From NCBI RefSeq assembly GCF_016863395.1, contig NZ_BOOU01000044.1, forward strand, positions 1 through 64,000: a DNA stretch of 64,000 nucleotides, read 5' to 3'. Under the pieces are notes generated by a model. The model saw only the letters and a program-made list of their open reading frames with translations, did not search any database and was not told the DNA's origin. Numbering within the stretch: position 1 is the stretch's first letter; every line of letters begins with the position of its first letter. The stretch comes from Sphaerisporangium rufum (GTDB lineage: Bacteria > Actinomycetota > Actinomycetes > Streptosporangiales > Streptosporangiaceae). Of this stretch, positions 1 through 51,593 are shown one piece after another. Made by a program: the position numbers and the translations under genes.

Positions 1-20
1 TCCCCGGGGACCGGGCCGCC

Positions 21-1877
21 GTGCAGGTCCCGCTGCGTCCCCGCGAGCCGGGAACACCGGTGCCGCCCTCGCCGGCCCAGGAACGCATCTGGTTCGTCGA
101 AGAGTTCCTCGGCGGCGAGCCCGCCGCCCACCTGGCCCTGACCCGCCGGCTGCGCGGGCCGCTGGACGTGGACGCGCTGACCGCGGCGCTGGCCAGGCTC
201 ACCGCCCGGCATGAGAGCCTGCGCACCCGGTACCAGGGCGAGAGCGGCCGGCCCCGGCCGGTGGTGGAGATCACCTGGACGCCGCGGCTCGACCGGCACG
301 ACCTCACCGGCCTGCCCACGGGCGCGGCCGAAGGCGAGGCGCGCCGGCTGGCCGGCGCCTGCGCCGACGAGCCGTTCGACCTGGCCGCCGCGCCACCGGT
401 CCGGGCGGCACTGATCCGGCTGGCCACCGAGGACCACGTGCTGTGCCTGGCAGTGCATCCGATCGCCGCCGACCACCGGTCGCTCGACATCCTGCTGGCG
501 GACCTGTCCGCGCTGTACGAACGGCGCGAGCTACCGGCGCCGCCGGTGCAGGCCGGTGACGTGGCGATCTGGCGGAGCCGGCGGGAGACCGCGGCCGCGG
601 CGGTGCTGGAGGACTGGTGCGGCCGGCTGGCCGGCGCCCCGGTACTGGACCTGCCGCTGGACCGCCCCCGCCCGGCGGTGGCGGCCCGCGCGCACGGGCG
701 GCACGAGCTGCGCCTGGCCGGCGCCGAGGCGCTGGAACGGCTGGGCGCCGCGGCCGGTGGCGGCCTGTCCACCGTGCTGCTCGCCGCCTACCAGATCCTG
801 CTGGCCCGGCACACCGGCCAGAGCGGATTCCTGGTGGGCCGCCCGGTCACCGGCCGCGAGCTGCCCGAGCTCCATGCGGTCGTGGGAAACCTCACCCGCC
901 ACCTGGTGCTGCGGGCCGACCTGTCCGGCGACCCGCCGTTCACCGAGCTGCTGGCCCGGACCCGGGCCGCCGAGGCGGAGTCGGCCGAGCACGCCGACAT
1001 CTCGGCCGAGCGGCTGGTCTCGGCGCTCGGTGTCGAGCGCGACCCGGCGCAGGAACCGCTCTTCCAGACGGTGCTGGCCCTGCCCGGCGAGCCCGCCCCG
1101 GTGCCGGCGACGTTCGGCGGGCCGGCGCACGAGGAGTTCGCGTCCCGCCCGCCGGAGGCGACCTACGACCTGGCCCTGATCGCCCGGCGCTCCGGCGATG
1201 TCCTCGTACTGGACTTCGACTTCGACGCCGCGCTGCTGGACGCGGCGACCGTCGAGCGGATCGCCGGGCGGTTCGCCGTACTGCTGGACCGGATCGCCGC
1301 CGGCCCCGGCCGCCGCGTCTCCGAACTGCCGTCGCACACTCCGGCCGACGAGGCGGAGATCGCCGGCTGGACCGGCGACGACCTGGTGCTCGACCCGTGG
1401 GGTGCCCCGGTCCCGCCCGGCGCGATCGGCGAGCTGCATGTGCCGGGCGAGGACGGCCGCCCGGCACCGACCGGGCTGCGAGCCCGCCGCCATCCCGGCG
1501 GGCGGGTGACGCGGCTCGGCCCGTTCGGGGCACAGCCCACCGTCGGCGTGCCGCGCGCCGGTGGCCGGCCCGGTCACCTGGCGCCGCGCAGCGACGCCGA
1601 GGCCCTGGTGGCCGACGTGTGGAGCGACCTGCTCGGCGTCACCCGGGTCGGCGCGCTGGACGACTTCTTCCATCTCGGCGGGCACTCGCTGCTCGCGGTA
1701 CGGGCCGCCGCGCGGCTGAAGGCCACCCTCGACGTCGAGGTGCCGATCCGCACCTTCTTCACCCACCGCACGGTGGAGCGGCTCGCGGCCGCGGTGGAGG
1801 AGCTGCTGCTGGCCGACCTGGAAGGCCTGTCCGATGAGGAGGCCATGCGCCTGCTCGACACCACGGAGGTGCCGTGA
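21..1877 (+). CDS. NRPS subunit: degenerate condensation domain, collapsed A domain, carrier domain
   Basis: Part of a nonribosomal peptide synthetase. Residues about 15-430 are a condensation domain (SPAQERIWF core motif near residue 18). The catalytic HHxxxDG motif reads HPIAADH at 146-152, so the second, catalytic His is Pro and the Gly is His; peptide-bond formation looks unlikely. Residues about 455-505 resemble only the A6-A8 stretch of an adenylation domain (DPWGAPVPPGAIGEL), and the rest of that domain is missing. A carrier domain follows with the phosphopantetheine Ser at about 556 in LGGHSLL. The frame is open to the left edge, so GTG 21 may be internal and the protein could begin upstream. 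It overlaps the next NRPS gene by four bases (GTGA), so the two are translationally coupled. A passive carrier or docking role is inference. Confidence 0.88.
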   Translation: MQVPLRPREPGTPVPPSPAQERIWFVEEFLGGEPAAHLALTRRLRGPLDVDALTAALARLTARHESLRTRYQGESGRPRPVVEITWTPRLDRHDLTGLPTGAAEGEARRLAGACADEPFDLAAAPPVRAALIRLATEDHVLCLAVHPIAADHRSLDILLADLSALYERRELPAPPVQAGDVAIWRSRRETAAAAVLEDWCGRLAGAPVLDLPLDRPRPAVAARAHGRHELRLAGAEALERLGAAAGGGLSTVLLAAYQILLARHTGQSGFLVGRPVTGRELPELHAVVGNLTRHLVLRADLSGDPPFTELLARTRAAEAESAEHADISAERLVSALGVERDPAQEPLFQTVLALPGEPAPVPATFGGPAHEEFASRPPEATYDLALIARRSGDVLVLDFDFDAALLDAATVERIAGRFAVLLDRIAAGPGRRVSELPSHTPADEAEIAGWTGDDLVLDPWGAPVPPGAIGELHVPGEDGRPAPTGLRARRHPGGRVTRLGPFGAQPTVGVPRAGGRPGHLAPRSDAEALVADVWSDLLGVTRVGALDDFFHLGGHSLLAVRAAARLKATLDVEVPIRTFFTHRTVERLAAAVEELLLADLEGLSDEEAMRLLDTTEVP

Positions 1878-4800
1878 CCAGCCTGTCCCCGGCCAAGCAG
1901 GCGCTGTTGGCCCAGCGGCTGCGCCGCCGCGGCGCGACCGCCACCATCACCCCGCGCCCGCCGGGCACCGAGCCGCCGCTGTCGCACGCCCAGGAGCGGC
2001 TGTGGTTCCTGGAGCAGTACCTGCCCGGCACCCCCGCCTACACCGTCTCGTGCACCGCGCGGGTGCGCGGCGATCTGGACGCCGAGGCGCTGCGCCGGGC
2101 CGTGCACGAGGTGACGGCCCGGCACGAGACCCTGCGCAGCCGGTTCGTCACCGCCGAGGACGGCACCCCCCGGGTGGTGATCGACCCCGAGCCGGGCACC
2201 GAATTCCGGGTGACCGAGGCCGCCTCCGCCGAAGCGGCACGCACCATGGTGTCCGCCGAGCTGACCCGGCCCTTCGACCTGGCGGCCGGCCCGCTGCTGC
2301 GGGTGCTGCTGGTCCGGCTGGACGACCGCGACCACGTGCTGCTGCTGGCCGCCCATCACGCGGTCACCGACGGGTGGAGCGGCGACGTCCTGCTGAACGA
2401 GCTGTTCGCGCTGCACGCCGCCGCCGGCGGCGGCGACCCCGCGCCGCCGCCCCCGCCGCCGGTGCAGTACGGCGACTACGCGATCTGGCAGCGGGCCCGG
2501 GCCGGCACCCCGGCGCACCGGGCGGACGTGGAGTACTGGCTGGACGAACTGGCCGGGGTTGCGCCGCTGGAGCTGCCCACCGACCTGCCGCGACCCGCCG
2601 AGCAGGGCTTCGCCGGCGCCGCCCACGGGTTCCGCCTGGAGCCGGATCTGGTGGCGGCGGCCGGGGCGCTGGCCGAGGCGCACGGCGCCACCCGGTACAT
2701 GGTGCTGCTGGCCGCCTTCCAGGCGCTGCTCGGCCGCTGGTCGGGCCAGGACGACTTCGCGGTCGGCACCCCGGTCAGCGGGCGCGGGCTGCCGGAGCTG
2801 GACGGGCTGGTCGGCATGTTCGTCAACACGCTCGCCATGCGGGCGCGCCTGTCGGGCGACCCGACCTTCGCCGAGCTGCTGGGCCGGGTGCGCGACACGG
2901 CGCTGTCGGCCTACTCCCACCAGGAACTGCCCTTCGACCAGCTGGTCAACGAGCTGAACGTCGAGCGGGACGTCAGCCGGTCGGCGGTGTTCCAGGTGAT
3001 GTTCGCGCTGCAGAACTACACCGCCCGCCCGGTCGACCCGCGCGGCCTTTCGGTGTCGTGGTTCGCCACCGACACCCACGTCAGCCGGTTCGACCTGAGC
3101 CTCTACCTGCACGAGGGCGCGGGCGGGCTGGACGGCACGCTGGTCTACAACACCGCGCTGTTCCGGCCGGACACCGTCGAGCGGATGGCGGCCGGCCTGA
3201 CCGCGCTGCTGCGCTCGGCGGTGGCCGCCCCGCACACCCGGCTGGCCGACCTGGAGGTGCTGTCGCCGGCCGAGCGGTCCCGGCTGCTGGAGCTGGGCGC
3301 CGCCCCGCCGCCGGCCCCGGCCGGGGCGCAGCTGCTGCACGAGCTGGTCGCCGCCCAGGCGGCCCGCACCCCCGACGCCCCGGCGGTCGCCTTCGCCGGG
3401 GCGACGCTGACCTACCGCGGGCTGGAGCACCAGGCCGGCCATCTGGCCCGCCGGCTGCGCGACCTCGGGGTCCGCCCCGGCGACCGGGTGGCGGTCTGCC
3501 TGGAGCAGTCCGCCGAGGTGGCGGTGGCCCTGCTCGGCGTGCTGCGGGCCGGCGCGGCATACGTGCCGCTGGACCCCGAGCAGCCCGCCGAGCGGATCGC
3601 CTACATGGTCCAGGACGCCGGGGTGCGCACCGTGGTGACCTCGGCGCCGGCCCGCGGGCCGCTGCCCGCCGGACTCACCGAGATCCTCATCGACGAGCAG
3701 CCGATGCCGGACGCCGAGCCCGAGCCGGTGGACGCCGGGATCGGCCCCGCGGACCTGGCCTACGTCATCTACACCTCCGGCACCACCGGCCGGCCCAAGG
3801 GCGTGGCGGTGCAGCACCGCGAGGTGGTCACCTACCTGGCCGGGGTCCGTGAGCGGTTCGCCGTCGAGCCGGGCGCCCGCTTCGCGCTGCTGCAGTCGCT
3901 GGCCTTCGACTTCGGCGTCACCGTCTTCTACCTGGCGCTGATGACCGGCGGCCGGCTGGAGCTGATCCCGTCGCGCACCTCGGCGCTGGAGCTGGCCGAG
4001 CACTTCGCCCGGGAGCCCGCCGACTACCTGAAGATCACTCCGTCGCACCTGGCCGCGCTGCTGGCCGAGGCCGCGCCGGCCGAGCTGCTGCCGCGCCGGC
4101 TGCTGATCCTGGGCGGCGAGGCCTCCGGCTGGGCGTGGGCCCGCGAGCTGGCCGCCCTCGGCCACTGCGCGGTGGTCAACCACTACGGCCCCACCGAGGC
4201 GACGGTCGGCATGACCACCTTCGCGGTCGACCCGGCCGAACCCGAGCAGGCGACGACGCTGCCGATCGGCCGCCCGCTGCCCGGCGCCCGCGTCCAGGTG
4301 CTGGACGCGCGGCTGCGCCCGGTGCCCGTCGGGGTGACCGGGGAGATCTACCTGGGCGGCGACCGGCTGGCCCGCGGCTACCTGGGCCGGCCCGCCCTCA
4401 CCGCCGAGCGGTTCCTGCCCGACCCGGCCGGCCCGCCCGGCGCCCGCATGTACCGCACCGGCGACCTCGGCCGGTGGCTGCCCGACGGCAGCCTGCAGTT
4501 CCTCGGCCGCCGCGACCTGCAGGTCAAGGTGCGCGGCTACCGGGTCGAGCTGGGCGAGGTGGAGTCGGTGCTGGCCGAGCACCCGGCCGTCGCCCAGGCG
4601 GTGGCCGAGCTGCGCGGCGACCGGCTGGTGGGCTACCTGCTGCCGGACGAGGCCGCTGGCCCGGAGCGGCCGCCCGCCGCCGAGGTGCGCGCCTGGCTGC
4701 GCGACCGGCTGCCCGACTACATGATCCCCGCCCGGTACGTGTGGCTGGACGAGCTGCCGCTGAAATCGCACGGCAAGGTCGACCGGGCCAGGCTCCCCGA

Positions 4801-7306
4801 CCCCGCCGACGACCAGGCCGCCGCCGGCGCCGCGTTCGTGCCGCCGGCCACCCCGGCCGAGGAGTCGGTCGCCGCCATCTGGGCCGAGGTGCTCGGCCTG
4901 GCCCAGGTGGGCGCGCTGGACGACTTCTTCGACCTCGGCGGTCACTCGCTGCTGGCCATGCAGGTGCTGACCCGGCTGCGCCGGCTGGCGCCGGACCGGC
5001 GGATCACCCTGATGGACCTGTTCAAGCGCACCACCGTGCGCGAGACCGCCGAACTGCTGACCGAAGGGGCGGACACCGGCGCCGGCGGGCTGCTGCACCG
5101 GCTCACCCCGCCGCGCGCGGCGGCCACCTCCCTGGTGTGCGCGCCCTACGGCGGCGGCAGCGCGGTGATCTACAAGCCGCTGGCCGACGCCCTGCCCGGC
5201 GGCTGGGCGCTGTATTCGATCGCGGTGCCCGGCCACGAGCTCGGCGAGGAGGCGGTGCCGCCGGAGGAGGTGGCCCGGCGCTGCGCCGAAGAGATCCTGG
5301 CGACCGTCCCGGGGTCGCTGGTGCTGTACGGGCACTGCGGGATCGGCGCCCTGATCGTCGCGGAGATCGCCCGGCTGGTGGAGGCCGCCGGCCGAACGGT
5401 CGAGGCCGTCTACCTGGGCGGGGTCTTCCCGTTCGCCCGGCCGGAGGGCCGGCTGACCCGGCTGCGGCACCGGCTGGACGACCTGCGCGGCGACCAGGCC
5501 CGGGTGAACGCGCTGACCGCCTCCGGGCTGGACGTCTCCGAGCTCACCCCCGAAGAGCTGACGCTGATCGTCCGCAACCGGCGCGAGGAGACCCGAGAGG
5601 CCGAGCGGTACTTCACCCGGCTGTTCGAGCGGCAGGCGTCGCGGCTGGCCGCACCGGTGATCACGGTCGCCGGGGAACGCGACCCGATTACGGAGTTCTA
5701 CCAGGAGCGGTACCGGGAGTGGCACGTGCTGTCCCCGGTCACCGCCTGCACGGTGCTGGACGAGGCCGCGCACTTCTTCGTGAAGTACCGCGCCGGGGAG
5801 CTGGCCGAGATCGTCACCCGCACCCACCGGGCGATCGCCGAGGGCCGCACCGCGCCGCTGGAGCGGGCCACCGGCGAGGAGACCTGGTGGCTGCAGGGCG
5901 TCTCCACCGCCCCCGACACCCCCGGCGGCGGCCCGGACGCGGTCACCGCCGAGGCGGCCGGGCCGCGGCCCAGCATGCGGCGGTTCTTCGGCGTCGCCGG
6001 CGGGCAGGCCCTGTCCATCATCGGTTCGGCGCTCACCGAGTTCGCCATCCCCATCTGGATCTACCTGACCACCGGGTCGCTGATCGACTTCGCGCTGTTC
6101 TCCGTGCTCGCCCTGGTGCCCGGCATGCTGGTCTCGCCGCTGGCCGGCACCATCATCGACCGCAACGACCGGCGCCGCGTCATGTTGCTCGGCGACGTCG
6201 GCGCCGGCGGCGCGCAGCTCACGCTGGGCCTGTTGCTGTGGACCGGCAACCTGCAGATCTGGCACATCTACCCGCTGCTGGGCTGCCTGTCGGTGGCGCT
6301 GGCCTTCCAGCGCATCGCCTACGGCTCGGCCATCCCGCAACTGGTGCCCAAACGCTTCCTCGGGCACGCCAACGGCGTGGTCGGCATGATCAACGGCGTG
6401 GCGCAGCTGATCGTCCCGCTGGCCGCGGCCGGGTTGATGGCGCTGATCGGCCTGGAGGGCATCCTGGTCATCGACGTGGTCAGCTACGCGATCGCCATCG
6501 GCAGCCTGCTGCTCATCCGCTTCCCGGCCACCATGGCGCTGCGCCGCCGCGAGTCGATGACGGCCGAGCTGATCAACGGCTTCCGCTACTCGTTCGGCAA
6601 CAAGGGCTTCCGCCGCATGGTCACCTTCTTCGCGGTGGTCAACCTGTTCATGGCCGCGCTGTTCATGATGATCTCGCCGCTGGTGCTGTCGTTCGCCACC
6701 CTCGGCGACGTCGGCCGGGTCTCGTTCTTCGGCGGGCTCGGCGTGTTCCTCGGCGGCATGACCATGGCGGTGTGGGGCGGGCCGCGGGAACGGCGCTTCC
6801 GCGGCCAGCTGATGTTCACCCTGACGCTCGGCCTGGCCGCGGTGGTCATCGGGTCGCGGGAGGACCTGGTGGTGATCACCGCCGGGGTGTTCGGCATGTT
6901 CCTGTCACTCACCCTGCTCAACGGCGTCTACACCACGATCGTCCAGGTGAAGATCCCGCAGCGCTACCACGGCCGGGTGTTCGCGCTGAACCAGCTGGTC
7001 GCCTTCTCCACCCTGCCGCTCGGCTACGCCGTGGTCGCCCCGCTGGGCACCGCCTGGCTGGAGCCGATGCTGATGCCCGGCGGCGCGCTGGCCGGCACCG
7101 TCGGCCAGGTGATCGGCACCGGCGCCGGCCGCGGGATCGGCCTGCTTTACGTGCTGCTGGGCACCGCCATCGCGCTGTGCGTGCTGGTGGCGCGCCGGCG
7201 CCGGGTGCTGTGGGACTTCGACGAGCTGGTGCCCGACGCGCTGCCCGACGACCTGATCGGATTCGAGACCCTGCGCAGCCGCGGGGCCCTGGCGAAGGAG
7301 AGCTGA
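1874..7306 (+). CDS. NRPS C-A-PCP-TE fused to an MFS exporter
   Basis: A 1810-residue terminal NRPS module fused to a transporter. The condensation domain (about 1-450) has an intact HHAVTDG at 161-167. The A domain (about 485-980) has [18 protein letters not shown] and the A10 Lys in SHGKVDR. By alignment to PheA I read the pocket code as DFTKIGHVGK, closest to published Asp/Asn codes; this is a hand reading. The carrier Ser is about 1025 in LGGHSLL. A thioesterase domain (about 1080-1330) has GHCGIG, with Cys1155 in place of the usual Ser, plus a candidate Asp in GERDPIT and His in EAAHFF. From about 1370 to 1790 it is a multi-pass MFS domain of the EntS/MFS_3 kind. No stop or start separates TE and MFS. 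The ATGA overlap with MbtH supports one operon. The likely role is last condensation, release and export of a small peptide. Confidence 0.93.
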
Positions 7307-7476
7307 TGAGCGACTACCAGGTCGTGATCAACGACGAGGAGCAGTATTCGGTGTGGCCGGTGGACCGGGACACCCCCGACGGCTGGCGGGCCACCGGGTT
7401 CCGCGGCGAGAAGGACGCCTGCCTGGCCCACATAGAGGAGGTCTGGACCGACATGCGCCCCCGCAGCGCCCGCTGA
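7306..7476 (+). CDS. MbtH-like protein
   Basis: A 56-residue MbtH family protein. These small chaperone-like proteins bind NRPS A domains and support their folding and adenylation. It carries the whole family signature: [10 protein letters not shown], then DGW, a Gly-rich turn, [14 protein letters not shown] and a short basic tail. The ATG overlaps the TGA of the NRPS-MFS gene (ATGA), so it is translated with it and most likely serves that A domain. It is the last gene of the NRPS operon, and a hairpin follows. Confidence 0.96.
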
Positions 7477-8808: not shown

Positions 8809-10077
8809 GTGAACCTTGCGCGCCGGTGGTCCCCGGCGATGACCGACGGCGCCCTGGCCGTGGCGATCGCCGCGTTCCAGGAGATCGGGGCCGTGTCCTC
8901 GCCGGCCGACGTCGGCCTGGCCGATCACCTGGCCATCCTGGCGGGCTCGCTGGTACTGGCCGGCCGGCGGCGGGCCCCGCGGACGGTCCTGGCGGTGACG
9001 ACCGCGTGCATGCTGCTGTACACGGTGCGCGCGCAGCCGGGGCCGGCGGCCGCCTTCCCGGTGCTGATCGCCATGGCCACCGCCACCTTCGCCGGTCACC
9101 GAGTGCCCGCCGCGCTGGCCTCCGTCGCGTACCTGGGCGGCACGCTGGCCGCCGCCTACACCGCCGCCGGCGGCCGGCCCGACCCGCAGGTCGTGCAGGG
9201 CACGCCGCTGCTGCTCGGCTGGTTCGTCGCCGCCGGAGTGGCCGGCGCGATGGCCCGGCACCGGCAGGCCTACCTGGCGCAGGTCGAGCAGCGGGCGCTG
9301 GACGCCGAGCGCACCCGCGAGGAGGCGGCGCTGCGCCGGGCGGGGGAGGAGCGGCTGCGCATCGCCCGCGAGCTGCACGACTCGCTGACGCACAGCATCT
9401 CGATCATCAAGGTGCAGGCCGGGGTGGCGGTGCACCTGGCGCGCAAGCGCGGCGACGAGGTCCCGCCGGCGCTGCTGGCGATCCAGGAGGCGAGCGCGGC
9501 GGCGATGCGCGAGCTGCGCGAGACGCTGGAGGTGCTGCGCGACCCGCCCCCCGCCGACCCGGGCACCGCCGACCCGCCCGCCACCGGCTCGGACACCGCC
9601 GATCCGGGCGCCGCCGCCGGTGACGGCGGCGGACCGGGCGGCGCCCCGGCCACACCCGGCGGCGACGATCCGGCCGCCGGGCCGCCGGCCAGCGGGCTGC
9701 ACCGGCTGGAGGAGCTGGTGGGCCGGGCGCGCGCGGCGGGCCTGCCGGTGACGGTCACGGTCAGCGGCGAGCGCCGCCCGCTACCGGCGGCGGTGGACCG
9801 GGCCGCCTACCGCATCGTCCAGGAGTCGCTGACCAACGTGGCCCGGCACGCCGGCCCGGCGGCGGCCGACGTCCACCTCGGTTACGACCCCGAACGGCTG
9901 GTCGTCCAGGTCGACGACGACGGTGACGCCCGCCCGCAGGCACCGGTGGCCCCCGGCGTGGGCCTGTCCGGCATGCGCGAGCGGGTCACCGCGCTGGGCG
10001 GCCGGCTGGCGGCCGGGCCCCGGCCCGGCGGCGGATTCTCGGTGCGCGCCGAGCTGCCCGCGGGGGAGCGGCCGTGA
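8809..10077 (+). CDS. NarL-family sensor histidine kinase
   Basis: A 422-residue membrane sensor kinase. Several hydrophobic segments in residues about 10-155 form an N-terminal membrane sensor with no large extracellular domain. A HisKA_3 dimerisation domain follows with the phospho-acceptor His190 in RIARELHDSLTHS, then a long Ala/Pro/Gly/Asp-rich insert (about 245-300), then an HATPase domain (ESLTNVARHA N-box and GVGLSGMRERV). The start is GTG 8809; ATG 8839 in the same frame is possible. It overlaps the response regulator gene by GTGA, so the two are a coupled pair. The signal is unknown. It sits next to the NRPS genes, but control of that cluster is only a guess. Confidence 0.92.
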   Translation: MNLARRWSPAMTDGALAVAIAAFQEIGAVSSPADVGLADHLAILAGSLVLAGRRRAPRTVLAVTTACMLLYTVRAQPGPAAAFPVLIAMATATFAGHRVPAALASVAYLGGTLAAAYTAAGGRPDPQVVQGTPLLLGWFVAAGVAGAMARHRQAYLAQVEQRALDAERTREEAALRRAGEERLRIARELHDSLTHSISIIKVQAGVAVHLARKRGDEVPPALLAIQEASAAAMRELRETLEVLRDPPPADPGTADPPATGSDTADPGAAAGDGGGPGGAPATPGGDDPAAGPPASGLHRLEELVGRARAAGLPVTVTVSGERRPLPAAVDRAAYRIVQESLTNVARHAGPAAADVHLGYDPERLVVQVDDDGDARPQAPVAPGVGLSGMRERVTALGGRLAAGPRPGGGFSVRAELPAGERP

Positions 10078-10730
10078 TCCGGGTGCTGCTGGCCGACGAC
10101 CAGGCGCTGATCCGGGCCGGATTCCGCGCTCTGCTGGAGGCCGAGGACGACATGGCGGTGGTGGCCGAGGCCGCCGACGGGCGGCAGGCCGTCGAGCTGG
10201 CCCGCACGCACCGGCCGGACGTCGCGCTGGTCGACGTGCAGATGCCGGTGATGAACGGCATCGAGGCCACCCGCCGGATCGCCGCCGACCCCGAGCTGGC
10301 CGGGGTGCACGTGGTGATCCTCACCAACTACGGGCTGGACGAGTACGTCTACGACGCGCTGCGCGCGGGCGCGGGCGGGTTCCTGGTGAAGGACACCGAC
10401 CCGGCCGACATGCTGCAGGGCGTGCGGACCGCGGCGCGCGGCGACGCGCTGCTGTCCCCGTCGATCACCCGCCGGCTGATCGGCGAGTACCTGGCCCGCC
10501 GCCCGCGGCCGGCGGCGGACGCGCTGGCGGTGCTCACCAACCGCGAGCGCGAGGTGCTGGCCCTGGTGGCGCGCGGCATGTCCAACGACGAGATCGCCGC
10601 GCACATGGTGATCAGCCCGACCACGGCCAAGACCCACGTCAGCCGGGCGATGACCAAGCTGCACGCCCGCGACCGCGCCCAGCTCGTCGTGCTGGCCTAC
10701 GAGTCCGGCCTGGTCACCCCGCGCCCCTGA
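10074..10730 (+). CDS. NarL/LuxR-type response regulator
   Basis: A 218-residue two-component regulator. The receiver domain has the acidic DDQ triad near residue 8, phospho-acceptor Asp54 in ALVDVQMP and the conserved Lys in FLVKDTD. The C-terminal LuxR helix-turn-helix (about 150-210) contains LTNREREVLALVARGMSNDEIA and TAKTHVSR. GTG 10074 overlaps the kinase stop, and the ribosome site GGGGGAG lies inside the kinase 3' end. It is the cognate partner of the upstream kinase. A hairpin at its 3' end separates it from the leftward P450 gene. Confidence 0.95.
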   Translation: MIRVLLADDQALIRAGFRALLEAEDDMAVVAEAADGRQAVELARTHRPDVALVDVQMPVMNGIEATRRIAADPELAGVHVVILTNYGLDEYVYDALRAGAGGFLVKDTDPADMLQGVRTAARGDALLSPSITRRLIGEYLARRPRPAADALAVLTNREREVLALVARGMSNDEIAAHMVISPTTAKTHVSRAMTKLHARDRAQLVVLAYESGLVTPRP

Positions 10731-10797: not shown

Positions 10798-12006
10798 TCA
10801 GGTGTCCCAGGTGACCGGGAGGCTCTTGACGCCGTGGATGTCGGCGGTCTCCGGGCGCAGCGGGACCTGGTCGGCCGGCACGGCCAGGCGCAGCGTGGGG
10901 AAGCGGGCGAACAGCGCGGGGAAGGCGACCCGCATCTCGACCCGGGCGAGCTGCTGGCCCAGGCACTGGTGGATGCCGTGGCCGAAGGCCAGGTGCCCGC
11001 CCTGCTGCCGGCCCAGGTCGAGGGTGTGCGGATCGGGGAAGCGGCCGGGGTCGCGGTTGGCGGTGCTGTAGGACAGGATCACCGTCGTACCGGTCTCGAT
11101 GGTGTGGCCGGCCAGCTCGACGTCCTCCAGCGCCGTCCGCAGGAACGTCTTGGCGACGCTCAGATGGCGCAACAGTTCCTCCACCGCCGGTTCGGCGAGT
11201 GCGGGGTCGGCGCGCAGCGCGGCGAGCTGCGCCGGGTGGCGCAGCAGGGCGAAGGTCCCGAGCGCCAGCATGTTGGCGGTGGTGTCGAAGCCGGCCGCCA
11301 GCAGGATGAATGCCATTCCCTGCAGCTCCTCGTCGGTGAGGTCGCCGTCGGTGAGGTCGCTGAGCACGTCGTCGGTCGGATCCGCCCGCTTGGCGGCCAC
11401 GAGTGCCGCGAGGTACCGCTGCACCTCGAGGTAGGCCGCGACCTGCTCCTCGTCGGTGGCCTCGCCGCCGAGTAGCAGGTCGATGTGCTCCTGGAACAGG
11501 CCCCGGTCGGCGTAGGGCACGCCGAGCAGCTCGCAGATCATGATGGCGGGGATGGGCTTGGCGAACGCGGTCACCAGATCCACCGGCGGACCGGCCTTCT
11601 GCATGGCGTCCAAGTGCTCGGCGGTGATCTGCTCGACGCGCTCGGTGAGTTGCCGCATCCGGCGGACGGTGAACTTGCCGACCAGCGGCTTGCGGTAGCG
11701 GCCGTGCCGCGGCTCGTCCATGAGAAGGAACTCGCCGGGCGGCGCCGGGGGGACCTCGATGTCGCCGTAGTCGATCAGCGGGTGGTGGCGCATGAGCTCC
11801 CTGCGCGAGCTGAACCGTGGGTCGGCCAGCACCGCGCGGACCAGGTCGTAGCCGGTGACCAGCCAGCCCTGGTGGCCGTCGGGGAAGAGGTAGCGGCTGA
11901 TCGGGCCGTGCTCGCGGGCCTCGAGCAGCTCCGCGGGCGGATCGAACGGACAGCCGGGCCGGCGCGCGGCGGGCATCGTGGTGACGGTGTACACGGATTC
12001 GGGCAT
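10798..12006 (-). CDS. Cytochrome P450
   Basis: A 402-residue bacterial class I P450. Visible family marks: I-helix AGFDTTANML with the oxygen-activating acid-Thr pair, the K-helix EELLR region, and the heme loop FGHGIHQCLGQQLAR with the thiolate Cys about 348. The N-terminus (PGCPFDPPAEL) is soluble, with no membrane anchor. ATG 12006 is chosen because AAGGAACG precedes it; upstream in-frame codons read low-complexity sequence. No ferredoxin or ferredoxin reductase lies beside it. It could oxidise a natural product made nearby, but about 3 kb and the two-component system separate it from the NRPS, so this is inference. Confidence 0.95.
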   Translation of the reverse strand: MPESVYTVTTMPAARRPGCPFDPPAELLEAREHGPISRYLFPDGHQGWLVTGYDLVRAVLADPRFSSRRELMRHHPLIDYGDIEVPPAPPGEFLLMDEPRHGRYRKPLVGKFTVRRMRQLTERVEQITAEHLDAMQKAGPPVDLVTAFAKPIPAIMICELLGVPYADRGLFQEHIDLLLGGEATDEEQVAAYLEVQRYLAALVAAKRADPTDDVLSDLTDGDLTDEELQGMAFILLAAGFDTTANMLALGTFALLRHPAQLAALRADPALAEPAVEELLRHLSVAKTFLRTALEDVELAGHTIETGTTVILSYSTANRDPGRFPDPHTLDLGRQQGGHLAFGHGIHQCLGQQLARVEMRVAFPALFARFPTLRLAVPADQVPLRPETADIHGVKSLPVTWDT

Positions 12007-12276
12007 GGTCGTTCCTTGTCTGACGCTGGAGGAAGCCGCTGGAGGAAGTGAAGTGGAGTTCGCGAGATGCGTCGCGCGGAACCGCGGCGTCCTGCAGCGG
12101 CGGGACGGCGGCCGGCGGGCGGCCGCGCGGGGAACCCCGGTGGAGGACATCGGGGTGGCAGGGGCATGGACGCCTGCCCGGGACGATGGGGGACGCGCGC
12201 CTGCTGATGGCGGCGGTTCGGGGAGTCGCGTCTCGGGGCCGGACCGGGCCAGGCCCGGCGGGGCCGCTCGGCGGGA

Positions 12277-20554: not shown

Positions 20555-20757
20555 GGTCTTTCCCGTCCTGTCGGTTCCGGCCGCCCGGTGGGTTCGCCGG
20601 GCACATCGGTATGGTGGCGGCCGGCAGGGGGCGGGCGCGTCTGGCCCGGGTCGCATCCCGGTGCCGGCCGCCGGCGGGGTGCTACGACCCTGGACCGGGT
20701 CGGATGTCCGACCGTGGGCAGATGCCAGGGAACCGCCGGGACGATAGCGTCCGGTAC

Positions 20758-21960
20758 ATGGAACGGGCGGGACGGCGCTTCGCCAGACGAGACGTCGCCG
20801 ATGCGGTGGCCGCGGTCGTGCTGGCGTTGTTCATCGGTTACGCCGTCGTGGATCCACCTGGGGCTTCGTCGTGGTGGCCGGACTGGGCGGCCTGGCCGGT
20901 GGGTGCGATCGTCGGCCTGCCGGTCGCGGTTCGCCGCCGCCGGCCGCGGGCCATGCTCGCCCTCGCGTGTGCCACCGCCGGGCTGGCGACCGTGGCCGGT
21001 GCCGTCGCGGCGGGCGCGATCTGGATGTCGTTCCTCCCGGCCGCGCTCGTGCTCTACCTGGTGGCCGCCACCACCTCGGCGGCATGGTCGGTGGCGGGGC
21101 TGGCCGGATGCGCGTCCACCGCGGTGATCGCGGTGCTGATCTTCTACCGACAGATCTTTCCGCGTCTCGTCCCCGCCGCCCATCCCAGCGAGCTGCCAAC
21201 GGCCTGGCCCATCGAGATCGGGGTGATCTGCGTGCTGCTGGCCGCCGGATGGACCGTCGGGACCGCCGTCCGCTGGAAGCGCGGCACCACCGATCGTCTG
21301 GTCCGTCACCTCGCCGAGTCGGCGGTGGCCGACGAGCGCAGGCGTATCGCCCGCGAACTGCATGACGTCATCGGGCACAGCATGAGCCTGATCGCCGTGA
21401 AGGCCACCGTGGCCAACCACGTCGCCGAGGCCCGGCCGCAGGAGGCGCGCGCCGCGCTGGCCGTCATCGAGCAGACCAGCCGCAGCACGCTCACCGAGAT
21501 CCATCGGGTGCTCGACCTGCTGCGCTCCGACGGCGACTCCCACCAGCCTCCGGCACCCATGCCCGGTACGGCGGACCTGCCCGAGTTGGCCGTCCACGCC
21601 CGCTCGGCCGGCGTGGAGGTGGATCTGGCCGTCCGCGAGGAGGCCGCGCTCCCGCCCGCGGTCGCGATGTCGGTGTACCGGATCGTGCAGCAGGCGCTGA
21701 CCAACGTGGTCACGCACGCGGCGCGCACCCGCTGCTCGGTCACCGTGGACATCGACGAGCGGGAGGCGGTGATCGAGGTCGTCGACGACGGCCCGCGCCA
21801 CGGCCGGCAGTCGCGTATCCGCCGGGGCGGCCACGGCCTGGTCGGCATGCGCGAGCGGGTCAGGATGTACGGCGGCACCTTCCACGCGGGCCGCCGGCCC
21901 GAAGGCGGTTTTCGCGTGTCGGCCCGGCTGCCGTACGAACCGGACGGCGGCGGCGCGTGA
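20758..21960 (+). CDS. NarL-family sensor histidine kinase
   Basis: A 400-residue sensor kinase. Hydrophobic segments in about residues 12-175 form an N-terminal membrane sensor. A HisKA_3 domain follows with phospho-acceptor His202 in RIARELHDVIGHSMSLI, and an HATPase domain with QQALTNVVTHA and GHGLVGMRERVRMYGG. ATG 20758 is preferred: TAGCGT lies seven bases upstream, as in a leaderless -10. ATG 20704 in the same frame is the alternative. The GTGA overlap with the regulator gene marks a coupled pair. It is divergent from the membrane protein gene. Confidence 0.9.
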   Translation: MERAGRRFARRDVADAVAAVVLALFIGYAVVDPPGASSWWPDWAAWPVGAIVGLPVAVRRRRPRAMLALACATAGLATVAGAVAAGAIWMSFLPAALVLYLVAATTSAAWSVAGLAGCASTAVIAVLIFYRQIFPRLVPAAHPSELPTAWPIEIGVICVLLAAGWTVGTAVRWKRGTTDRLVRHLAESAVADERRRIARELHDVIGHSMSLIAVKATVANHVAEARPQEARAALAVIEQTSRSTLTEIHRVLDLLRSDGDSHQPPAPMPGTADLPELAVHARSAGVEVDLAVREEAALPPAVAMSVYRIVQQALTNVVTHAARTRCSVTVDIDEREAVIEVVDDGPRHGRQSRIRRGGHGLVGMRERVRMYGGTFHAGRRPEGGFRVSARLPYEPDGGGA

Positions 21961-45224: not shown

Positions 45225-45835
45225 CCTCGTCCACCTGCTCTCGAATCGGTCTGCGGCGCCGAGCCGGTCCTGCCGGCACCCTGGAGCATCGCGCGCAGCA
45301 CGGGCGCGACGTTCGCGGCGGTCAGGTCCGGGTCCAGTGCCCGGTGCAGCATCACGCCGTCGACGGCGGCGGTCAGCGTCGCGGCCGCCCGGTGCGGCGC
45401 GGCCACCCCGAACTCGGCGAGCCGGGCGGCGATCTCGGCGCGGGCGGCGCCGGTGACCTCGGCCAGGGCCGCGCGCAGGACGGGGTCGCGGGTGGCGGCC
45501 AGGTAGGTCTCGGTGAACAGCAGGGAGACCGGGTCGGTACCGCTGAAGCCGTCCAGGGCGGCCAGCAGCAGATCGACCAGCTCGCCGGGGCCGCGGGCCC
45601 GGCGCAGCGCCGGCCCGGCGTCGGCGGCCACCGCGCGGATCACGCCGAGCGCGGCCTCGCCGAGCAGGGCCTGCACTGAGCCGAAGTGGTAGTGCACCAG
45701 CCCGGCGGCGACCCCGGCCCGCTCGGCGGCCATCCGGGTGCTGACCGCCGTCCAGCCCCGCTCGGCGATGAGCTCGGCGGCGGCACGCAGCAGCCGCTGG
45801 CGCACCTGTCTTCCCCGCTCCGCCGTCGTCGCCAT
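45221..45835 (-). CDS. TetR family transcriptional regulator
   Basis: A 204-residue repressor. The helix-turn-helix is RQRLLRAAAELIAERGWTAVSTRMAAERAGVAAGLVHYHFGSVQALLGEAAL. The C-terminal ligand domain is helical ([52 protein letters not shown]). ATG 45835 has AGGAGAGCGG upstream. It overlaps the monooxygenase gene and probably represses both until a ligand binds. A large palindrome lies about 40 bases upstream. Confidence 0.95.
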   Translation of the reverse strand: MATTAERGRQVRQRLLRAAAELIAERGWTAVSTRMAAERAGVAAGLVHYHFGSVQALLGEAALGVIRAVAADAGPALRRARGPGELVDLLLAALDGFSGTDPVSLLFTETYLAATRDPVLRAALAEVTGAARAEIAARLAEFGVAAPHRAAATLTAAVDGVMLHRALDPDLTAANVAPVLRAMLQGAGRTGSAPQTDSRAGGRG

Positions 45836-45875
45836 CCGCTCTCCTGACCGGTCGGGATGTCTGCCGGGCAACCGA

Positions 45876-45906
45876 GTTGGGCGACCGCCTTGGTCGACTG
45901 CCCAAC
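45876..45906. promoter_or_regulatory. TetR operator candidate
   Basis: GTTGGGC (45876-45882) and GCCCAAC (45900-45906) form the outer arms. Inside, CGACC (45882-45886) pairs with GGTCG (45892-45896) over a 5-base centre. The nested symmetry in front of the TetR gene is typical of an operator that binds two dimers. It lies 40 bases upstream of TetR and about 215 bases before the carboxylase start, so it could influence both directions. Confidence 0.6.
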
Positions 45907-46121
45907 TACACGGTACACCCGGCCGGAGCGTGCCGGCGCCGGCAGGGCGGCTCGGTGGCGGCTCGGCGGCGGCTTGGCCGGTTTCCACAACTGAAGCCAC
46001 CAAGCGTGCGCTGGCGCCGACATGGCGTCGCGGTCTTAGAGGCGAAAGGGTGGACAATGCCGTGGGGGCGACCATGTCCCGCGCGCGCAGAGGTCGGTCC
46101 ATCGGAAAGGGGCTTGGTCGG

Positions 46122-51593
<5,472 letters not shown>

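Follow-up and report, generated by a model that had tools for sequence, protein, structure and literature searches.

We examined a 64,000-nucleotide stretch of DNA (hereafter the window, to which all coordinates refer) at the start of contig 44 (NZ_BOOU01000044.1) in the draft genome of Sphaerisporangium rufum. It holds a nonribosomal peptide synthetase (NRPS) gene in which a module of condensation (C), adenylation (A), peptidyl carrier protein (PCP) and thioesterase (TE) domains runs in frame into a 12-helix transporter of the major facilitator superfamily (MFS). An initial annotation had claimed that the chain continues past the TE without a stop into a full MFS transporter, and the analysis confirms this: the open frame encodes 1810 amino acids and its last part is recognized as MFS_1 of Pfam with 12 helices. 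In the reading that we consider probable, this last NRPS module, tethered to the membrane by the MFS, makes, releases and exports a peptide close by.

The stop codon of the upstream NRPS gene overlaps the GTG start of the fusion gene. Conservation was counted over 84 aligned sequences, namely the window, three plasmid loci and 80 loci retrieved from a collection holding one genome per species. The features of the gene are as follows.

1874 to 7306, plus strand: C-A-PCP-TE-MFS fusion gene, 1810 amino acids, translated without internal stop.
1865 to 1869, plus strand: GGAGG, ribosome-binding-like sequence preceding the GTG start at 1874.
1973 to 3289, plus strand: condensation domain with intact HHAVTDG (Pfam; the H, H, D and G kept in 84 of 84).
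3350 to 4777, plus strand: adenylation domain and its C-terminal subdomain, code DFTKIGHVGK, Asp- or hydroxy-Asp-like (Pfam, code alignment).
4865 to 5059, plus strand: peptidyl carrier protein with GGHSL (Pfam, alignment).
5129 to 5815, plus strand: thioesterase, ObiF1-like, with the triad Cys1155, Asp1270 and His1300 (Pfam, alignment, PDB profile match, fold match).
5336 to 5338, plus strand: codon of the TE nucleophile Cys1155, within GHCGIG (alignment).
5882 to 5905, plus strand: TWWLQGVS motif after the TE, a beta strand in the structure model (W1338 in 84 of 84).
5918 to 5956, plus strand: stretch of the TE-MFS linker that is modelled with low confidence and probably flexible (model residues 278-290, predicted local distance difference test, pLDDT, under 50).
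5978 to 7303, plus strand: MFS transporter with 12 predicted helices, motif A (GxxxDRxxRR) and a cytosolic N-terminus by the positive-inside rule.

Each domain scored above its curated Pfam cut-off, in the order Condensation (residues 34-472), AMP-binding (493-837, with its C-terminal domain at 895-968), PP-binding (998-1062), Thioesterase (1086-1314) and MFS_1 (1375-1711). The part before the transporter has the make-up of an NRPS termination module, that is, a C domain with HHxxxDG, an A domain, a PCP with GGHSL (kept by all 84 aligned sequences) and a C-terminal TE. The GC fractions of the three codon positions in frame 1874-7306 are 0.76/0.50/0.98, as expected of strongly coding third positions. 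Since the value of 0.98 marks the plus-strand frame as the coding one, the antisense open reading frame at 1574-6367 (1597 amino acids) is most likely only a mirror frame, a by-product of high GC.

As the initial annotation had asked, the TE-MFS junction was sought across genomes. TE and MFS share one open frame in all 80 retrieved loci, which are the best of 270 relatives found by a pattern search of the collection and under-represent weaker or split relatives. The linker between the two domains takes 45 distinct lengths, from 27 to 101 amino acids, and is in frame throughout the 84 sequences. A tblastn search of plasmids matched 98% of the protein in one piece in records of Embleya (two) and Streptomyces clavuligerus (three); three of these loci were fetched (two Embleya, one S. 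clavuligerus), and in each a single frame holds both TE and MFS, at 47-62% identity to the window per domain and 36-44% in the linker. The annotation had named, as a finding that would overturn the fusion, a sequencing error hiding a stop at residues of about 1340-1370. This was looked for in the relatives and not borne out: with every retrieved locus in one frame and the linker variable yet always in frame, a hidden stop or frame error there is very unlikely, and we reject it. That two genes were joined by an assembly or sequencing artefact may be suspected because the genome is a draft and the window begins where its contig does, but the junction sits 5.9 kb inside the contig and recurs in 80 of 80 other loci, and the three stops followed up in relatives were all gene-end stops, so that we assign this explanation a negligible probability. 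One short match (L153) is an internally deleted copy. A separately initiated MFS was also considered. Met1368, the sole candidate for an internal start, is present in 75 of the 84 sequences, and a Shine-Dalgarno-like sequence precedes it in 5 of these 75, as against 150 of 2459 for other internal Met codons; the ribosome-binding signal is not above background and the candidate was rejected.

The retrieved relatives belong mostly to Streptosporangiaceae, with others in Streptomyces, Kitasatospora, Peterkaempfera, Pseudonocardia, Kibdelosporangium and Micromonospora; the fusion is thus kept over Streptosporangiaceae, Streptomycetaceae, Pseudonocardiaceae and Micromonosporaceae. Genome samples were also searched, with 10, 2 and 3 candidates scored per genome for near relatives, class and phylum respectively, which undercounts paralogues; several fusion paralogues were found in some genomes nonetheless. 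Among near relatives, 21 of 100 genomes (own included) match at E <=1e-30, each with at least one single-frame TE+MFS match. In the class sample the figure is 32 of 394 (own included) at E <=1e-40; single-frame TE+MFS matches occur in 20 genomes besides our own, the other matches being MFS-only or TE-only, and in one genome (G241) the two halves lie at contig ends. Only 3 of 296 genomes in the phylum sample match at E <=1e-60, these being our own genome and two with a standalone MFS. Within a part of the actinomycetes the fusion occurs widely; outside that class none was seen in the sampled genomes. The initial annotation had mentioned that fused NRPS/MFS proteins exist in actinomycete databases, which agrees with the fusion sequences found here.

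A tree of 56 MFS domains has one branch (99/98) dividing 45 fused from 11 standalone rows. It was repeated with cyanobacterial, G507 and plasmid rows, because the scores of the cyanobacterial MFS had reached those of the remoter fused ones. The second tree has 62 rows (36 of the 80 retrieved loci, the window, the three plasmid loci, 19 rows from 18 further loci, two cyanobacterial rows and one from G507), and again one branch (100/99) divides fused from standalone, 48 from 14, the latter including both cyanobacterial rows. It was rooted at the midpoint, so the direction from separate to fused is itself inferred. No re-split of a fused TE and MFS was seen among its rows. From these trees we take it that a single fusion event underlies the sample, with no later separation, and the conservation over several actinomycete families argues that the physical linkage has been selected.

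The TE itself is a cysteine TE, a point that the initial annotation had missed together with its kinship to ObiF1 and the size and variants of the family. Its nucleophile is Cys in 81 of the 84 sequences and Ser in 3, while the triad Asp (D1270) and His are invariant. When a TE profile was compared with the PDB, ObiF1 was the best match (E 9.9e-35), followed by a thioesterase at 9.1e-20 and RifR at about 1e-13; ObiF1 also leads when the window TE is used alone (7.3e-26). The alignment puts Cys1155, Asp1270 and His1300 onto the ObiF1 triad, given as Cys1146, Asp1254 and His1284 in the part of Kreitler et al. (PMC6668435) used here, the reported numbering and the PDB chain numbering being offset by 20. 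At the EntF-type Asp position (residue 1183, aligned to ObiF G1173) there is Gly in 65 sequences and Ala in 19. A cysteine nucleophile, a triad Asp at the RifR-like position and none at the EntF position are the features of a cysteine TE of the ObiF/SulM type.

The transporter half has 12 hydropathy peaks, and its charges follow the positive-inside rule regularly, which predicts a cytosolic N-terminus and fits the need for a cytosolic TE; the TE is thus predicted to be cytosolic and located at the membrane. The 12 helices, motif A and an MFS_1 score of 63.9 bits against a cut-off of 33.4 are those of the 12-helix MFS drug:proton antiporter type. A structure model of TE+MFS built with 59 sequences has a pLDDT of 81.2 and a predicted template modelling score of 0.75, and in a fold search with it ObiF1 came first, the transporter MdfA second and third, and the SulM TE fourth. 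The membrane tether proposed by the initial annotation follows from the sequence and the predicted topology, and its overall interpretation is only partly supported. Its further suggestion, that the product could pass directly from TE to exporter, is compatible with the fusion and the tether.

On the reading that we prefer, the upstream gene would deliver a short peptidyl chain, as suggested by locus L012, which is closest to the window (MFS 91% identical) and whose upstream gene has two A domains with what we take to be Gly-like codes. The fusion module would then add one residue according to its Asp- or hydroxy-Asp-like code, and the ObiF1-kind cysteine TE would release the peptide. The 12-helix MFS, with its fold resembling drug:proton antiporters, would hold the module at the inner membrane face and export the released product. 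The fusion would fix TE and exporter at 1:1 and close together, such that the product leaves where it is made, before it reacts, is degraded or harms the cell. We have good grounds to infer that the chain is seated in the membrane and that the peptide it makes is the cargo of its own MFS. A local hand-over from TE to exporter is suggested less strongly, and so, by analogy with ObiF1, is a ring-forming release that may give a reactive ring.

What the TE releases was approached from the codes of the terminal A domains. Asp- or hydroxy-Asp-like codes, DFTK[IVL]GHVGK, account for 64 of the 84 sequences, with 11 Ser-like, 6 Cys-like and 3 DTED-type codes. The code positions follow GrsA numbering as assumed here, and the Ser, Cys and Gly assignments are likewise assumed; for one locus (L088) the code differs between two alignments (DVWHISLVDK vs DVWHCGLVDK). 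The TEs with a Ser nucleophile coincide with the DTED codes, three in each case, and all belong to one clade. A link between Ser nucleophile and DTED code was rejected, as the three matches in a single clade amount to one event at most. None of the three DFTK codes turned up in the open literature searched. The nearest printed code, DLTKVGHVGK, is tabulated for L-erythro-hydroxy-Asp in the section of PMC10391617 used, and that of PMC12283262 tabulates it also for Asp and Asn.

One version of the mechanism has the ObiF-like TE close a strained ring (a beta-lactone on hydroxy-Asp or Ser, a beta-thiolactone on Cys) that the attached MFS would take up before self-acylation, with a fused phosphotransferase in one relative (L164, see below) adding protection or capping. 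If true, it would account for the coupling of a pump to a TE of this type, and it requires a beta-hydroxyl in the Asp-like group; we regard it as distinctly unlikely in this full form. The competing explanation sees in the TE nothing more than a conventional release domain, hydrolytic or macrocyclising, in which the nucleophile happens to be cysteine; the peptide would then be linear or macrocyclic, and the fusion would serve export only. The terminal code of the window is Asp-like with no proven beta-hydroxyl, and a PhyH gene is present at L012 with no other among 849 neighbour genes, although this was a one-sequence search and a weak test; a cysteine nucleophile also occurs in the uncharacterised AB3403, according to the part of PMC11298585 used. 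Against this stands ObiF1, which forms beta-lactones and is the closest relative of solved structure: its Cys, Asp and His align with those of the TE, which has Gly or Ala where EntF-type TEs have their Asp. Also, 81 of the 84 terminal codes are Asp-, Ser- or Cys-like (some of these assignments being assumed), for residues that carry or can gain a beta-heteroatom. On balance we give ordinary release a little better than an even chance.

The standalone relatives of the MFS bear on its role as a peptide exporter. An NRPS domain adjoins on the same strand in 5 of the 10 fetched loci (L130, L131, L144, L147 and L149), and on two cyanobacterial plasmids (Trichormus and Nostoc) the MFS gene lies 14 and 1 bases behind an NRPS gene. 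This neighbourhood marks the MFS group, by association, as peptide exporters. A further standalone MFS (369 bits) occurs in G507, where the context in the gene list was judged by eye only. In Trichormus, the NRPS and MFS genes come after a gene of the phytanoyl-CoA dioxygenase family (L168:1781-2605), much as the L012 fusion has a PhyH gene in its neighbourhood.

Several results count against production and export by one tethered chain, or against parts of that reading. Among the standalone MFS loci, the only NRPS domain at L140 is on the opposite strand, L139 gave a weak match only, and for L141, L142 and L143 none was found within the 4 to 4.5 kb fetched. The MFS scores below the cut-off of TIGR00900 (H+ antiporter protein), 174.4 vs 319.6 bits, this being the only transporter among the 25 of 118 NCBIfam families listed. 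The terminal A code of the window alone does not supply the beta-hydroxyl for an ObiF-like ring closure, and a cysteine TE without MFS exists (L145). Between the window and L012 the linker evolves fastest, with a proportion of nonsynonymous differences (pN) of 0.226 vs 0.059 for MFS and 0.099 for TE, and about 13 residues between TE and MFS have a pLDDT under 50 in the model; with a fast-changing linker and low model confidence, a specific TE-to-pump channel is not indicated. Also, the distances in the TE and MFS trees correlate at 0.88 over all 45 rows and at 0.45 in the 38 core rows, and the nearest neighbour is identical in both trees for 27 of the 45. In view of the moderate agreement in the core, the two domains have probably been exchanged at times, which speaks against tight substrate matching. 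The variable linker (27-101 amino acids, partly of low confidence) and the moderate tree agreement would both be at home with an MFS that merely anchors the module to the membrane or serves as a pump for general self-resistance, the fusion then giving co-expression and fixed stoichiometry with no local hand-over. Yet co-expression needs no fusion, as the MbtH gene, split NRPS genes and unfused NRPS-MFS neighbours share a gene order while unfused, and within the fused group TE and MFS were never seen to separate again; we consider this explanation unlikely, if one to be taken seriously.

Extended forms of the fusion were also found. In L164:3103-9906 (G035) the C-A-PCP-TE-MFS chain continues in frame into an APH-type phosphotransferase (108.2 bits vs 23.2), for a total of 2267 amino acids. 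This form is a single case and the genus of G035 contains that genome only; the phosphotransferase could possibly provide self-protection or capping in the same chain. At two loci of one genus, L160:4012-7053 (G241) and L162:4389-8192 (G307), the MFS is fused to a C-terminal methyltransferase domain.

The genes on either side of the fusion gene are the following.

3 to 1877, plus strand: 3' portion of the upstream NRPS gene, truncated where the contig begins, with a degenerate condensation-like domain (HPIAADH, not HHxxxDG) and then a PCP.
7306 to 7476, plus strand: MbtH-like protein gene, overlapping the stop of the fusion gene by 1 base pair.

The upstream fragment has no A domain between its degenerate C domain and PCP and is 63% identical to the end of L012:558-6842. 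This complete upstream gene reads A-PCP-C-A-C*-PCP, where C* is the degenerate C domain. A deletion artefact as the cause of the missing A domain was rejected because the complete L012 gene has the same C*-PCP end; the degenerate domain (HPIxAD) may be an interface or accessory domain. When the lost upstream part was sought on other contigs of the same genome, only less similar modules were found besides the window genes. Near the L012 fusion lie genes for a glycosyltransferase, E1 subunits and a PhyH oxygenase. Genes for 2-oxoacid dehydrogenase subunits occur near the fusion at many of the 84 loci (E1 alpha-like in 24, E2-like in 22, E1 beta-like in 11; e.g. L020 and L021), and genes for TauD, a hydroxylase considered as a fixed partner, were matched in 22 of the 22 genomes searched (1 to 8 matches each), as genome-wide counts that carry no distance to the NRPS loci. 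The product is likely a short peptide, possibly acylated and glycosylated. In the window itself a cytochrome P450 gene, a possible tailoring enzyme, is near the NRPS genes (10798-12150, minus strand), a histidine kinase with response regulator lies beside the cluster (8809-10730), and a second histidine kinase is at 20611-21960. Farther away, 45738-51593 encodes a 1951-amino-acid single-chain protein resembling acyl-CoA carboxylases, with biotin carboxylase, biotin carrier and carboxyltransferase domains. On the linear plasmid of S. clavuligerus, a large polyketide-synthase-like frame (L010:28343-35209), judged by eye from its translation, follows about 8 kb after the fusion gene.

Whether the synthases of natural products hand their product to an exporter is an old question, studied so far by way of protein pairs that touch one another. 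With synthase and exporter joined covalently in a chain conserved over actinomycete families, the hand-over becomes directly testable. Also, the cysteine TE together with Ser-, Cys- and Asp-like terminal codes marks a large group of clusters to search for reactive-ring peptides. Among the papers listed by full-text searches of open literature, neither an NRPS-MFS fusion nor such cysteine-TE fusion clusters were found described.

Among known systems, EntF is likewise a C-A-PCP-TE terminal module served by an MFS exporter, except that synthetase and exporter are separate proteins, the exporter of enterobactin being EntS; also, the fusion protein reaches 452.9 bits against a cut-off of 2400 for the EntF equivalog of NCBIfam. 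ObiF1, the NRPS of obafluorin (PDB 6N8E), shares C-A-PCP-TE in one chain, the cysteine nucleophile, the RifR-like triad Asp and a further domain behind the TE. Its chain, however, ends in an MbtH-like domain where the fusion ends in a transporter and MbtH is the next gene, and beta-lactone formation has been shown for ObiF, whereas for the fusion protein it is only a possibility. The SulM TE of sulfazecin (PDB 8W2C) is similar in fold, as the fold search showed, and also has a cysteine nucleophile, as reported in the part of PMC11298585 used, with the motif Gln-Cys-Asn instead of the His-Cys-Gly of the fusion TE; the words 'transporter' and 'MFS' are absent from the text of that paper. The Trichormus and Nostoc neighbours also have a related MFS gene straight after an NRPS gene, but as two genes, and the NRPS C-termini have no match to the window TE. 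In fungi, the passages used of PMC10700112 describe Armcep1_13598, a gene of an NRPS-independent siderophore synthetase with an apparent fusion to a C2-domain/MRP-like transporter gene, which is a fungal gene model with no NRPS, TE or MFS. Finally, in the cereulide CesAB-CesCD pair (PMC7527721) and in PpsE-MmpL7 of phthiocerol dimycocerosate (PDIM; PMC1238737), as far as the sections used describe them, a biosynthetic megaenzyme touches its own transporter at the membrane as proposed here, but the contact is in trans and with ABC and RND transporters, in place of the covalently joined MFS of the fusion.

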